Shown in pieces: positions 4,351-43,787 of a DNA stretch of 64,000 bases. The notes below the pieces were generated by a model. The model had not been told where the DNA came from. It ran no database searches and was given only the letters and a program-made list of their open reading frames with translations. Origin of the DNA: Gemmatimonadaceae bacterium (GTDB lineage: Bacteria; Gemmatimonadota; Gemmatimonadetes; Gemmatimonadales; Gemmatimonadaceae). Each line of letters opens with the position of its first letter. Positions within the stretch are counted from its first letter, which is position 1. A program made the translations under genes and the position numbers. The stretch lies in the NCBI GenBank assembly GCA_025934775.1, contig JAICWO010000009.1, positions 62,001-126,000 on the forward strand, in the 5' to 3' direction.

Positions 4351-5259
4351 TCAGCAGTGGCGTCGCGCGCTCGTCCAACGCGCGTGCCACATACCATCGG
4401 CTCCGCGCTCCACGATCCCGTACGATGCGCTGTCGCCAAAATCGCGCGACACCACGAGTGTCGGCGTGCGGTTCTCACCGAGAAGGACGACAGCGACGAG
4501 ATCGTGACTTTCGATCGTCTCCTCATCGCCGTAGGAGCGCTCGGAGTACGTCGTCGCGAACGATGAATCACTCCCACCAGGCTTTCTCTCGGCAATGAGG
4601 AGCGTGCGCTCCTGGAGCGGCGTGGCCTCTTGATTGATCTGGCGCGTGGTGTTGGCGATCAGTACCTGACTTCCGTCAGGTGTATCGAACCGCCACAACG
4701 CGGACACGACGAACGGCAACCCGGCGAACCGTCCAGCGGGGTCGTTCGGGAGCGCGGACGCGAGGCGCGCCACTTGAATGACGATCGCGGCGGAATCGGC
4801 ACGGGTGAGCGACTCGGTGGAGTCGAGGCGCACCGGTGCGACCACGCCGCCGAGGAAGCCCACGTTCCATGCATGGGGCGGTGGCGCCGCACTGAGCGTG
4901 GCGGTGTAACAGCCGGTGGTGTCGATCACGTTTGGCAAGTCGGCGGCCTGCACTGTGCCGCTGCGACTGAACAAGCTGACGGATGCCGGGTGCGGGAGCG
5001 CCGCGATCTCGCTCGACGCGGTCGCGCTGTCCGGGAAATAGACCAGCGCGTCTGTCGGCGAGCTCCCAGCGACGAGAAGCAGTCTGCCTGCGCTGGCGTT
5101 CCAGCTACTGGCTTGCGGGATCGTCGTGCTGCTTTCCGGCTTCGCGACTGCTGTCACGGCCGATGTCGATTCGGCGGTGCCCGGCGTCTTGGCGCGCTCG
5201 CACGCGGCCGCGAGGAGCATGGCGCACAGGATCGGATGCAACCGGCGGAAGAGCATCAT
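4351..5259 (-). CDS. Lipoprotein of unknown function
   Basis: 302 residues. The N-terminus has a short charged region, a hydrophobic stretch and the lipobox LAAAC, so the mature protein is predicted to be lipid-anchored. The rest is soluble, with repeated Ser/Thr/Ala segments and no enzyme motif I recognise. It is transcribed toward the ABC permease operon, with only three bases between the two stop codons, and diverges from the MFS gene at 5329. Secreted or periplasmic location is well supported. I cannot assign a function. Confidence 0.75.
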   Translation of the reverse strand: MMLFRRLHPILCAMLLAAACERAKTPGTAESTSAVTAVAKPESSTTIPQASSWNASAGRLLLVAGSSPTDALVYFPDSATASSEIAALPHPASVSLFSRSGTVQAADLPNVIDTTGCYTATLSAAPPPHAWNVGFLGGVVAPVRLDSTESLTRADSAAIVIQVARLASALPNDPAGRFAGLPFVVSALWRFDTPDGSQVLIANTTRQINQEATPLQERTLLIAERKPGGSDSSFATTYSERSYGDEETIESHDLVAVVLLGENRTPTLVVSRDFGDSASYGIVERGADGMWHARWTSARRHC

Positions 5260-5328
5260 TCATCGTAATTTGGACTAGCTGATGCCCCAGTCAACGCCGC
5301 GGCGCCGGAACGTTCTGGAGACCTCTGC

Positions 5329-39001: not shown

Positions 39002-40399
39002 ATGACACGCAACCGCCGCCCCTACGCCACCGTCCTCGAGACCATCGGGTGGACGCCGATGATCCGTCTCAACAAAGTGACGCGCGGCATTCGCACGCCG
39101 GTCTTCGCGAAAGCCGAATTCTTCAATCCCGGCGGCTCGATCAAGGATCGCATCGGCGGCCCGATCATCGAGCGGGCGGAGCGCGAGGGGCATCTCAAGC
39201 CGGGCGGCACGGTCGTCGAAGGGACGAGCGGCAACACCGGCGTTGGCCTCGCGATCGCGGCGGCGCTCAAGGGCTACAAGTGCATCTTCACCATGCCGGA
39301 CAAGATGTCGCAGGAGAAGGTGCGGCTGCTCAAGGCATTCGGCGCCGAGGTCATCGTCACGCCCACAGCGGTGCCGCCGGACCATCCGGACAACTACGTG
39401 ATGATGGCGAAGCGCATTGCGCACGAGACGCCGAACGCGATTCTCGCCAATCAGTTCTACAACGACGCGAATCCCCAGGCGCACTACGAGAGCACCGGCC
39501 CCGAGATCTGGGAGCAGACGGAGGGGAAGGTCACGCACTTCATCTATGCCGCCGGCACCGGCGGCACGATCACCGGCGTGGGGCGCTATTTAAAGGAGAA
39601 GAATCCTAAAATTCAGATAATCGCCGGCGACCCGGTGGGATCGATTCTCGCCGAGATGTGGCGCAGCAAGGGCGAGAGCAAGCCGGAGGGCGTGCCGTAC
39701 AAGATCGAAGGCATCGGGCAGGACAAGGTGCCGGGCACGCTCGACATGGGACTCATCGACGACTTCATGACGGTGAGTGACAAGGAAGCGTTCGCGATGG
39801 CGCGGCGACTCACGCGTGAAGAGGGCCTGTTCGTCGGCGGCTCGAGCGGCTTGATCACGCACGTCGCGCTCCACGTCGCGCGCCGCGCCGACGATCCGAA
39901 CGCGCTCGTCGTCGCCGCGCTTCCGGACACCGGCGAGCGGTATCTGTCCAAGCTTTACAACGACGAGTGGATGCGCGAGAACCAGTTGCTCGACTCCGAC
40001 CGCACGACGCTCGAGCTGGTGCTCGAGAACAAGTCGCGCCACGACGGCGATACGCCCGAGATCGTGAGCGTCGCGCCGGGAGCAACCGTGCGACAGGCGC
40101 TCAGGCTCATGTCGCAGCACGACGTGTCGCAGCTTCCGGTGATGGACGGCTCCAACTGCGTCGGCTCGGTGAGCGACTGGTCGCTCTCCGCGAAGAGCCT
40201 CGAGGATACCAAGGTGCTCGATGCGATCGTTGGGCAGGTGATGGACGGACCGTTCCCCGTCGTCGACGTAGGGCAGCCGGTGGACAGCGTGGCCAAGCTG
40301 CTCTCCAAGTCGAACCCCGCGGTGCTCGTGCGCGGCAACGGCTCGGTGCAAGGCATCGTCACCCGCTCCGACATGCTGAACTACTTGATGGCGAGGTAG
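39002..40399 (+). CDS. Cystathionine beta-synthase-like PLP enzyme with CBS domain pair
   Basis: 465 residues. The N-terminal 320 residues are a fold-type II PLP enzyme: lysine 48 in FNPGGSIKDRI, phosphate loop GTSGNTGVGLA and GTGGTITGVGRYLKE. The C-terminal 120 residues form two CBS motifs (VRQALRLMSQHDVSQLPVMD, then VAKLLSKSNPAVLVRG), which in such enzymes bind adenosine ligands. It condenses serine (or O-acetylserine) with homocysteine or sulfide; the CBS pair favours cystathionine synthesis. The ddl gene starts 6 bases after the stop. GGSSG is present near residue 280. Confidence 0.9.
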   Translation: MTRNRRPYATVLETIGWTPMIRLNKVTRGIRTPVFAKAEFFNPGGSIKDRIGGPIIERAEREGHLKPGGTVVEGTSGNTGVGLAIAAALKGYKCIFTMPDKMSQEKVRLLKAFGAEVIVTPTAVPPDHPDNYVMMAKRIAHETPNAILANQFYNDANPQAHYESTGPEIWEQTEGKVTHFIYAAGTGGTITGVGRYLKEKNPKIQIIAGDPVGSILAEMWRSKGESKPEGVPYKIEGIGQDKVPGTLDMGLIDDFMTVSDKEAFAMARRLTREEGLFVGGSSGLITHVALHVARRADDPNALVVAALPDTGERYLSKLYNDEWMRENQLLDSDRTTLELVLENKSRHDGDTPEIVSVAPGATVRQALRLMSQHDVSQLPVMDGSNCVGSVSDWSLSAKSLEDTKVLDAIVGQVMDGPFPVVDVGQPVDSVAKLLSKSNPAVLVRGNGSVQGIVTRSDMLNYLMAR

Positions 40400-40405
40400 G
40401 ACCTC

Positions 40406-41422
40406 ATGCGCATCACGGTCTTGATGGGTGGCACCTCGTCGGAGCGGGACGTGTCGCTGGCGACGGGGATTCGGTGCGGCCGCGCGCTCGAGCAGGTGGG
40501 GCACTCGTTGACGTACGTCGATCCCGCGCGCGGCGCAATGAGCGACGATGACCTGCGCCGCCTCTCGAGCGGAGTCGTGGTGCAGACGGCGCCGCCGTCG
40601 GAAGAGAAGCTGCGTCAGATGGCGCGCGAGGCGCTTCCCCGCCTGGCGACCAATCTTCCGCGCGGCAGCGACACCGACGTGGTGTTCCTCGGCCTGCACG
40701 GCGGGTATGGCGAGGACGGGACGATCCAGGCGTTGCTCGATCTCTCGGGCGTGCCGTACACGGGCAGCGGGCATTTGGGCAGCGCGCTCGCGATGGACAA
40801 GGACGTCTCCAAGCAGTTGTTCATGCAGAACGGCGTCTCAACCGCGGAGTGGCTCATGGCGCCGGCCAGCGAGAACGAAGTCGGTGTGCGGCTTGGATTT
40901 CCGGTGATCGTGAAGCCATCGAAGCAGGGGTCGACCGTGGGGTTGTCGATCGTGCGCGAGCCGGCACGGTTGCGGGCGGCGGTCGATGAAGCGTTTCAGT
41001 TCGACGACGAGGTGATGATCGAGCGCTACATCGCTGGGCGCGAGCTGACCGTAGGGATGTTGGGAGGCGAGGCGCTGCCGGTTGGCGAAATCCTTCCGAA
41101 GCACGAGATTTATGACTACGAGTGCAAGTACACGGCGGGAATGGCGACCGAAGTCTTTCCCGCCGAGCTCTCGGCCGATGAAACGGCGCGCGTGCAGCAC
41201 GAGGCGCGCAAAGCGTTTCGCGCGCTGAAACTGGGAGGGTGCGCGCGAATCGATTTCCGCATGGCGGCCGACGGAACGTTCTACTGTCTCGAGGCGAACA
41301 CGCTTCCCGGGATGACGCAGACGAGTCTCGTACCACAGGCGGCGGCGGCAGCGGGGATCGAGTTTTCGGAGCTGTGCGACCGGATCGTTCGGCTGGCCGT
41401 CGAGACGCGCGGAGGATTGTGA
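40406..41422 (+). CDS. ddl: D-alanine--D-alanine ligase
   Basis: 338 residues. ATP-grasp signatures are intact: HGGYGEDGTIQALLDLSGVP then YTGSG, VIVKPSKQGSTVG, and the catalytic end LEANTLPGMTQTSLVP. It makes the D-Ala-D-Ala dipeptide for peptidoglycan in the cytoplasm. The start MRITVLMGGTSSERDVSL is typical, 6 bases after the previous gene. The stop shares bases with the start of the QueE-like gene, an unexpected neighbour that looks translationally coupled. Confidence 0.96.
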   Translation: MRITVLMGGTSSERDVSLATGIRCGRALEQVGHSLTYVDPARGAMSDDDLRRLSSGVVVQTAPPSEEKLRQMAREALPRLATNLPRGSDTDVVFLGLHGGYGEDGTIQALLDLSGVPYTGSGHLGSALAMDKDVSKQLFMQNGVSTAEWLMAPASENEVGVRLGFPVIVKPSKQGSTVGLSIVREPARLRAAVDEAFQFDDEVMIERYIAGRELTVGMLGGEALPVGEILPKHEIYDYECKYTAGMATEVFPAELSADETARVQHEARKAFRALKLGGCARIDFRMAADGTFYCLEANTLPGMTQTSLVPQAAAAAGIEFSELCDRIVRLAVETRGGL

Positions 41423-42084
41423 TGCTGCACGCTGGGGGAGGGGGACCGACGGCGGCGCTCGCGGGAATTCCCGCGGGGCTGCAGGCGCAGGGTGTTTGGG
41501 CGGGGCGGCGTCAGCTCTTCGTGCGCTTTGCCGCCGAGGCCGAAACGGCCACGATGTACACGGCCGACGCGCTCGCGAACGAGATCAAGCGGAGCACGGC
41601 GCGCTCCTCGTTCCACTCGATCTCGATCTCCGGGCGCGACCCACTCGCCAATGTCGAATACCTCTGTGCGGCCTTCGACAAGATTGGCGACTCGTTGCCG
41701 GCGATGCTCGACTGCGACGGACAGCGACCGAACGAGATTGGGATGTTGAACGGTGTGCTGACGCTCGTCCAGGTGACACTCGACGGTCCAATGCTCGAGT
41801 CGCACGCGGAACGCGCGTGCCAGACGCTCAAAGTCTCGTCGGACGCGGAATTGCAGCACGCGCTGGCGATCAACGTGGACGAGCGCACGACGGACGCGCA
41901 GCTCCTCCGCACGATCGAGCGCGCGCATGGCGCGAGCGATCGGACACAGATCGTGGTGCATCCGAGCGCCGGGACGCCACTCGACCGCGATCGCCGGTGG
42001 ATCACGCTCTTCGAGCGCGCGGGCGCGCTGCACGGGGACATTCGGCTCGTGATCAGACTTCCCGCCCCCACGGGAATGCGTTGA
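41422..42084 (+). CDS. Radical-SAM QueE-like protein lacking the iron-sulfur cysteines (probable pseudoenzyme)
   Basis: 220 residues from ATG 41422, which overlaps the ddl stop. The pattern GIPAGLQAQGVWAGRRQLFV parallels the start of 7-carboxy-7-deazaguanine synthases (SIQGEGVWAGRxQVFVRFAGC). HSISISGRDPLANVEYL parallels HSVSLTGGEPL, LDCDGQRPNEI parallels LETNGTLP, and VQVTLDGPMLESH parallels the next strand. But the CxxxCxxC cluster motif is replaced by AAEAETATMYT (residues 37-47) and the SAM-binding GGEP by GRDP. The three cysteines present (82, 98, 133) are not in a cluster motif. It therefore cannot be a normal radical SAM enzyme. The homology call is by eye. queF lies 1.3 kb downstream. 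Confidence 0.7.
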   Translation: MLHAGGGGPTAALAGIPAGLQAQGVWAGRRQLFVRFAAEAETATMYTADALANEIKRSTARSSFHSISISGRDPLANVEYLCAAFDKIGDSLPAMLDCDGQRPNEIGMLNGVLTLVQVTLDGPMLESHAERACQTLKVSSDAELQHALAINVDERTTDAQLLRTIERAHGASDRTQIVVHPSAGTPLDRDRRWITLFERAGALHGDIRLVIRLPAPTGMR

Positions 42085-42176: not shown

Positions 42177-43070
42177 ATGTCGCAACCGGCAACATACGAG
42201 CACGACACACCGAGACTGACCACCGCCGTGCAGGTCCTCATCGCGATGAACGTCGCGGTGATGTTCGTGCAGTTCGTGGTCTACGAGCAGTTCTCGAGTG
42301 CCCTCGCGTTCGACTATCACGCGCTGCCGGTGAAGCCGTGGACGGTCGTGACATACATGTTCGCGCACGTCGGGCTCTGGCACCTGCTCGCGAACATGTA
42401 CGTGCTCTCGCTCTTCGGTCCGCGGCTCGAGCAGATGTGGGGCGCGAAGAAGTTCAGTTGGTTCTATCTCGCGTGCGGCTTGGGCGGCGTGCTGTTCGAG
42501 CTGTTGTTCATTCGCGCGGGGATCTTGATCGGCGCGTCGGCCGCCGTGTTCGGCGTCATGACCGCGTACGCGATGCAGTGGCCCGACGAAGAGATCTATC
42601 TGATGTTCGTGCTGCCGATGCGCGTGCGCACGCTCGCGGTGGGTCTCTTCGTCTTCAATCTCGTGATGGGCATCATGGCGACGACGGACGGCACCAACAT
42701 CGCGTACTTCGCGCACGTGGGCGGCGTGCTCGCCGCGTACATGCTCGTTCGCATGTCGGCCTCGCCGGGCATCGATCAGGTGAGGCAGCGCGTGGCGAAT
42801 CTGCCCGACGCGGACGAACCGCCGCGCGCGATTCCGCGCAGCATGCCGCGGCGCGAACGCGGCGACGAAGTCGATGACATCGTGGCGAAGAGCAAGGCGA
42901 TCGTCGCCAAGCGCGTGAGCTCGCTCGCGCAACGATCCAGCCGGCGCGAGGCCAAGGCCGAGGAGCTCAACCGCGTGCTCGACAAAATCTCCGAGCAGGG
43001 TCTCGACAGTCTCACGAGTGACGAGCGGAAGATCCTCGAGGAGATGTCGAAGAAGTTGAGAAACGACTGA
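42177..43070 (+). CDS. Rhomboid intramembrane serine protease
   Basis: 297 residues with six hydrophobic segments in the first 190. The catalytic dyad is Ser121 in IGASAAVFG and His180 in YFAHVGG, with the conserved HLLANMYVLSLFGP loop upstream. The C-terminal 110 residues are charged and cytosolic and end in a helical tail (LDKISEQGLDSLTSDERKIL) that is a known extension in some bacterial rhomboids. It cleaves membrane proteins within or beside the bilayer. Substrates are unknown. It starts 92 bases after the QueE-like gene. Confidence 0.92.
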   Translation: MSQPATYEHDTPRLTTAVQVLIAMNVAVMFVQFVVYEQFSSALAFDYHALPVKPWTVVTYMFAHVGLWHLLANMYVLSLFGPRLEQMWGAKKFSWFYLACGLGGVLFELLFIRAGILIGASAAVFGVMTAYAMQWPDEEIYLMFVLPMRVRTLAVGLFVFNLVMGIMATTDGTNIAYFAHVGGVLAAYMLVRMSASPGIDQVRQRVANLPDADEPPRAIPRSMPRRERGDEVDDIVAKSKAIVAKRVSSLAQRSSRREAKAEELNRVLDKISEQGLDSLTSDERKILEEMSKKLRND

Positions 43071-43275: not shown

Positions 43276-43388
43276 CACGCACGCGCTAGGCCAGTTCCGC
43301 GGGCTCATGTGTGCTGCGACTGGATGGCTCCCAGTGGCTGGTCGAGGCCGCGATTGATCGTGGCAAGAGCATCGTGCATTCTTGTCCG

Positions 43389-43787
43389 ATGCCAAAGCCA
43401 GAACTTCTCGAGACGTTTCCAAATCCGTACGCGGGCCGTGACTACGAGATCGCCATGGAATGCCCGGAGTTCACGTCGCTCTGTCCCCTAGGCGGCATCG
43501 AGAGTGACGCGAACGAGCTTGCCGCGCTGAAGGGCGGCGCGCCTGACTTCGGAACCATCTACATCACCTACGTTCCGGGTGACGTGTGCCTCGAGCTCAA
43601 GAGCCTCAAGCTGTATCTCTGGAGCTTTCGCGACGACGGCATCTTCTACGAGCGAGCCGTGAATCGGATTCTCGACGACCTGTCGGGCGCCGCGAAGCCC
43701 AAATGGATGGAGATTGTCGGTGACTTCAACATTCGCGGAGGGATCAAGTCGGTGATACGAGCGAGAGTGGGGGTGAAGAATGGGTGA
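43389..43787 (+). CDS. queF: NADPH-dependent 7-cyano-7-deazaguanine (preQ0) reductase with loop insertion
   Basis: 132 residues from ATG 43389. The family body CPEFTSLCP (catalytic Cys32), PDFGTIYITYVPG (Asp53) and the NADPH motif ELKSLKLYLWSFRDDG are present, ending in the conserved GDFNIRGGI. It reduces preQ0 to preQ1 in queuosine synthesis. In ordinary unimodular QueF, Cys and Asp are seven residues apart (CPxTGQPD). Here they are 21 apart, separated by LGGIESDANELAALKGGAP, an insertion of 14 residues. No preQ1 riboswitch consensus is seen upstream. Overlaps the peptidase gene by 8 bases. Confidence 0.92.
   Translation: MPKPELLETFPNPYAGRDYEIAMECPEFTSLCPLGGIESDANELAALKGGAPDFGTIYITYVPGDVCLELKSLKLYLWSFRDDGIFYERAVNRILDDLSGAAKPKWMEIVGDFNIRGGIKSVIRARVGVKNG

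Follow-up and report, generated by a model that had tools for sequence, protein, structure and literature searches.

The window analysed here (64,000 nucleotides) encodes a 220-residue protein at positions 41422–42084 of the forward strand that appears to have a radical-SAM fold and to be a descendant or a sister of QueE. In this protein, referred to here as psQueE, the loop that bears the cysteines between strand 1 and helix 1 has been lost, and so have the [4Fe-4S] cluster and the SAM radical chemistry; this step is based on computed evidence, i.e., the predicted fold, the missing loop, conservation, and selection. The gene is functional in the evolutionary sense and is under purifying selection, which has been strong at the mouth of the former active site. 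Rather than the remains of a dead gene, its product is probably a binding protein or an enzyme that has been repurposed. On balance, we favor the view that psQueE is a cluster-free protein with a QueE fold that was repurposed to bind a small-molecule ligand where the active site used to be.

The open frame is supported by homologues, predicted fold, and selection, and shows the order of motifs described in the first-pass annotation. It begins inside the stop codon of ddl (D-alanine–D-alanine ligase; 40406–41422, +), which is located immediately upstream; the claimed overlap is evident in the sequence TGATG (41420–41424, +) and comprises a single base. In most relatives, the overlap is 1 or 4 bases, and if the start codon closest to the ddl stop is used, the start overlaps ddl or is at most 17 bases away in 42 of 44 loci. 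Codon use is indeed like that of the neighboring gene (GC3 of 0.83 vs. 0.835 in ddl). The dN/dS ratios of psQueE (0.04–0.27; Nei–Gojobori method, twelve pairs) are in the same range as those of ddl and the rhomboid gene, and 26 columns are invariant across 40 homologues.

The N-terminal region carries a QueE signature (residues 19–36, GLQAQGVWAGRRQLFVRF; 41476–41529, +), in which Q21 and R35 align with Gln13 and Arg27 of QueE. It is followed by a shortened loop (residues 37–47, AAEAETATMYT; 41530–41562, +) at the site of the iron-sulphur cysteines of QueE, which is the most conserved stretch of the psQueE family. The profile alignment pairs GLQAQGVWAGRRQLFVRF of psQueE with TLQGEGANVGRAAVFCRF of QueE, then passes over the greater part of the QueE cluster loop and resumes behind it (ATADALADAV of QueE with YTADALANEI of psQueE, GGEP with GRDP, and ETNGT with DCDGQ), which indicates that the cysteine loop was deleted and not simply mutated. 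The earlier proposal that AAEAETATMYT replaces the CxxxCxxC motif is therefore correct with respect to the absence of the cysteines but does not hold residue for residue, because the cluster loop is largely gone. Neither a CxxC motif nor cluster-binding cysteines are present in any of 53 psQueE homologues, nine of which have no cysteine at all, which agrees with the claim that no [4Fe-4S] site, at least of the known kind, can form. There is also no frameshift that would restore the cysteine motif; AETA..Y is found in every relative, and purifying selection acts on the frame. As had been noted, GRDP takes the place of GGEP: the GRD (residues 71–73; 41632–41640, +), which is invariant among the homologues, replaces the GGE of this SAM-binding motif. 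A further motif, DGQRP (residues 99–103; 41716–41730, +), is located at the end of strand 3 and comprises the invariant residues D99, R102, and P103.

Radical-SAM enzymes hold the cluster and SAM at the ends of strands 1–3, and it is the ends of these strands that are lined by the new invariant residues of psQueE (AxxAETAxxY, GRD, and DGxRP). In the clean set of 53 homologues to which all conservation figures refer, the strand ends have mean entropies of 0.30 bits (strand 1), 0.42 bits (strand 2), and 0.47 bits (strand 3), compared with 1.53 bits in the helices and 1.80 bits in the far loops; the difference between the whole barrel mouth and the helices plus far loops has a P value of 0.0014. 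It is chiefly this concentration of conservation at the barrel mouth that makes ligand binding or catalysis a more plausible role than that of a pure scaffold. In the profile alignment with QueE, the equivalents of Gln13 and Arg27 are retained in 100% (Q21) and 98% (R35) of the psQueE homologues; both are substrate-binding residues in the QueE of Escherichia coli (PMC11142719), and Arg27 forms a salt bridge (PMC5347944).

The QueE-like fold and motif order claimed for the protein are supported by structure prediction and profile alignment. An AlphaFold2 model of psQueE based on 40 homologues (pLDDT 89.7, pTM 0.87) has a barrel of six, not eight, beta-alpha units, and its top VIA-align match is the QueE of Bacillus subtilis (5th5; Z 16.8, rmsd 3.3, 202 residues), followed by pyruvate formate-lyase (PFL) activase (15.5) and the QueE proteins of E. 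coli (14.2) and Burkholderia multivorans (13.7). The model of a 46%-identical homologue (pTM 0.86) gave the same first match (Z 17.5, rmsd 3.1, 201 residues), again ahead of PFL activase (16.0) and the QueE of Burkholderia multivorans (14.7). QueE ranked first only after re-alignment with VIA-align and not by Foldseek alone; it is absent from the best 50 Foldseek matches of the psQueE model, which are other radical-SAM proteins and unrelated barrels. Curated QueE models of NCBIfam (TIGR04508, TIGR03365, and others) do not match psQueE itself, and the best members of the family reach E values of only 0.065 and 0.18. Read literally, this is the first of the refuting outcomes named in the first-pass annotation; the kinship with QueE emerges solely from comparisons of profiles and of structures. 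A profile–profile comparison with QueE (23 relatives and the sequences of three crystal structures) revealed a relationship with an E value of 7e-5, albeit at a probability of only 63–64%; the score of 37.2 exceeds the maximum of 100 column shuffles (27.5) and that of the reversed profile (18.9). When the remaining 18 radical-SAM proteins encoded in the genome were compared with the psQueE profile, all had E values of 0.024 or worse, which places QueE first among 19. Among the Pfam models, psQueE has only a sub-threshold match to Fer4_12 (E 0.0057), whereas 26 of 40 members, not including psQueE itself, match Radical_SAM (PF04055) at E values up to 1 (best 1.4e-5). A phmmer search of psQueE against the PDB gave no matches.

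The gene is embedded in a conserved neighborhood. In most loci, the order is mutS, a PLP-dependent protein with CBS domains (cystathionine beta-synthase-like; 39002–40399, +), ddl, psQueE, a rhomboid-family membrane protease with a DUF6576 tail (42177–43070, +), and queF (preQ1 synthase; 43383–43787, +; TIGR03139, 148 bits), which is located 1.3 kb downstream of psQueE, as previously stated. Nearly all relatives of psQueE lie in such an operon of ddl, a QueE-like gene, and the rhomboid gene, with or without queF. The rhomboid protease with its C-terminal DUF6576 tail adjoins ddl irrespective of the presence of psQueE.

Among 298 genomes of the phylum, there are 42 intact copies of psQueE and one remnant, all in Gemmatimonadaceae, and when 84,980 species genomes were scanned, all records returned were from Gemmatimonadota, except for one labeled just 'bacterium'. 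An intact psQueE is present in 47 of 108 nearly complete Gemmatimonadaceae genomes, and one more has a remnant. Several genera contain both carriers and non-carriers, and in a tree of four operon genes, the gaps fall into several separate clades. This distribution is best explained by an ancestral presence and repeated loss within the family, although the tree is midpoint-rooted and the reading is not a formal test. The in-frame remnant between ddl and the rhomboid gene at locus L149 (G306:C106, approximately 5111–5290; also L081) consists of approximately 46 N-terminal residues fused to the C-terminal end, which would represent a loss in progress.

Together, these features suggest how psQueE may have been remodeled. 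The barrel mouth at strands 1–3 retains the substrate-side Gln and Arg of QueE and has gained the fixed residues E41, T42, Y46, R72, D73, D99, and R102. Because the mouth combines these two sets of residues, psQueE has most likely kept the ability to bind a particular small molecule at this site, where it would function as a sensor, a carrier, or a non-radical enzyme. It would be translated together with ddl and serve an accessory function that was lost several times within Gemmatimonadaceae.

Several alternative explanations have to be considered. The internally deleted, in-frame remnant in one genome could speak for a pseudogene in decay or an open frame that arose by chance, but the traces of selection (dN/dS and invariant columns) contradict this notion, which is extremely improbable; the verdict of the first-pass annotation that psQueE is not a degraded pseudogene is thus borne out. 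An origin outside QueE is also improbable. Since PFL activase scores within about 1.3–1.5 Z of QueE, the descent from QueE rests mainly on the N-terminal signature, and psQueE might instead stem from the branch of PFL and ribonucleotide-reductase activases (NrdG2 is weakly matched by 6 of 40 members) or represent a converged pterin-binding TIM barrel. The latter would be of the methionine synthase/MtrH type: an hmmsearch of the psQueE alignment against the PDB yielded only weak matches to methionine synthase (folate domain, E 0.13 over 92 residues), and one member matches MtrH (E 0.001). Both scenarios conflict with the first rank of QueE in the comparisons of both models and in the profile comparison, and the barrel has six and not eight beta-alpha units.

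It is unlikely that psQueE is a queuosine-pathway pseudoenzyme that retains its pocket, binds CPH4, CDG, or preQ0, and either regulates QueF or passes the ligand on to it, a role in line with that suggested in the first-pass annotation; binding of preQ0 or a purine as such is conceivable. Although Q21 and R35 equal substrate residues of QueE and queF is part of the same operon, the residue at the Glu15 position varies, and the SAM motif no longer has its GGE. Moreover, eight Gemmatimonadaceae genomes without psQueE have ddl followed directly by the rhomboid gene and then queF, which indicates that the co-location of queF is a property of the operon and not of psQueE. The proximity of queF, from which a link to queuosine had been proposed, is weak evidence for such a role. 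The genome also encodes a canonical QueE (TIGR04508, 346 bits), QueC at a distance of about 400 bases from queE, two proteins of the PTPS/QueD family, either of which may serve queuosine synthesis, QueF, and TGT. The canonical queE (Cx14CxxC) is located at L182 (5482–6117, −), a QueC match nearby at G000:C47:93013–93660, and the PTPS/QueD-family genes at G000:C12:132288 and G000:C6:122361. With a complete queE beside queC, CDG synthesis does not need psQueE; judging from gene content, psQueE would not make CDG, whereas the complete QueE can. Canonical QueE is equally common among carriers (45/47) and non-carriers (57/61) of psQueE, which argues against an association and rules out psQueE as a substitute for a missing QueE. 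A second queE of the B. subtilis type was not found above the cut-off in 61 genomes. Two carriers, G078 (rated 100% complete) and G271 (92%), have no match to canonical QueE. Similarly unlikely is a catalysis-free regulator that acts by protein contact, e.g., with Ddl, peptidoglycan synthesis, or division. The coupling to ddl in nearly all relatives and the precedent of the R27A variant of E. coli QueE, which makes no Q-tRNA yet continues to arrest division at the Z-ring (PMC11142719), are consistent with this possibility. However, the division activity in E. coli requires E45–W67, just behind the cluster loop, and C31/C35 (PMC11142719), which are lacking in psQueE; also, conservation is centered on the barrel mouth, and psQueE is absent from several lineages where ddl persists. 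A new, cluster-independent enzyme in which E41, D73, and D99 serve as acid/base residues at the former SAM site, alongside R72 and R102, and which acts in a pathway linked to D-Ala-D-Ala ligase is conceivable, although unlikely.

The cluster is the defining feature of radical-SAM proteins. If true, the repurposed, small-molecule-binding psQueE would constitute a fixed, family-wide lineage without the cluster loop but with a retained and rebuilt pocket, which would illustrate the uses of the scaffold without radical chemistry. A literature search with partial coverage yielded no description of a cluster-less relative of QueE or a similar radical-SAM pseudoenzyme.

With QueE (4NJG, 6NHL, 5TH5), psQueE shares the partial (beta/alpha)6 barrel, the motif order, and the QxxGxxxGRxxxFxRF start with the equivalents of Gln13 and Arg27, at about 11–20% identity in structure alignments. 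Unlike QueE, it lacks the cluster loop and its cysteines, has GRD instead of GGE, has no Mg-binding CDT, and does not conserve the position equivalent to Glu15. The PFL activating enzyme (3C8F) belongs to the same fold class (Z 15.5–16.0) but carries CxxxCxxC and is devoid of the QueE-type start. The QueE of E. coli, whose block of septation does not depend on CDG synthesis, sets a precedent for a protein with this fold acting without making CDG (PMC11142719). It keeps its cysteines and needs the E45–W67 insertion, whereas psQueE has neither and would be a natural counterpart to this catalysis-free role.
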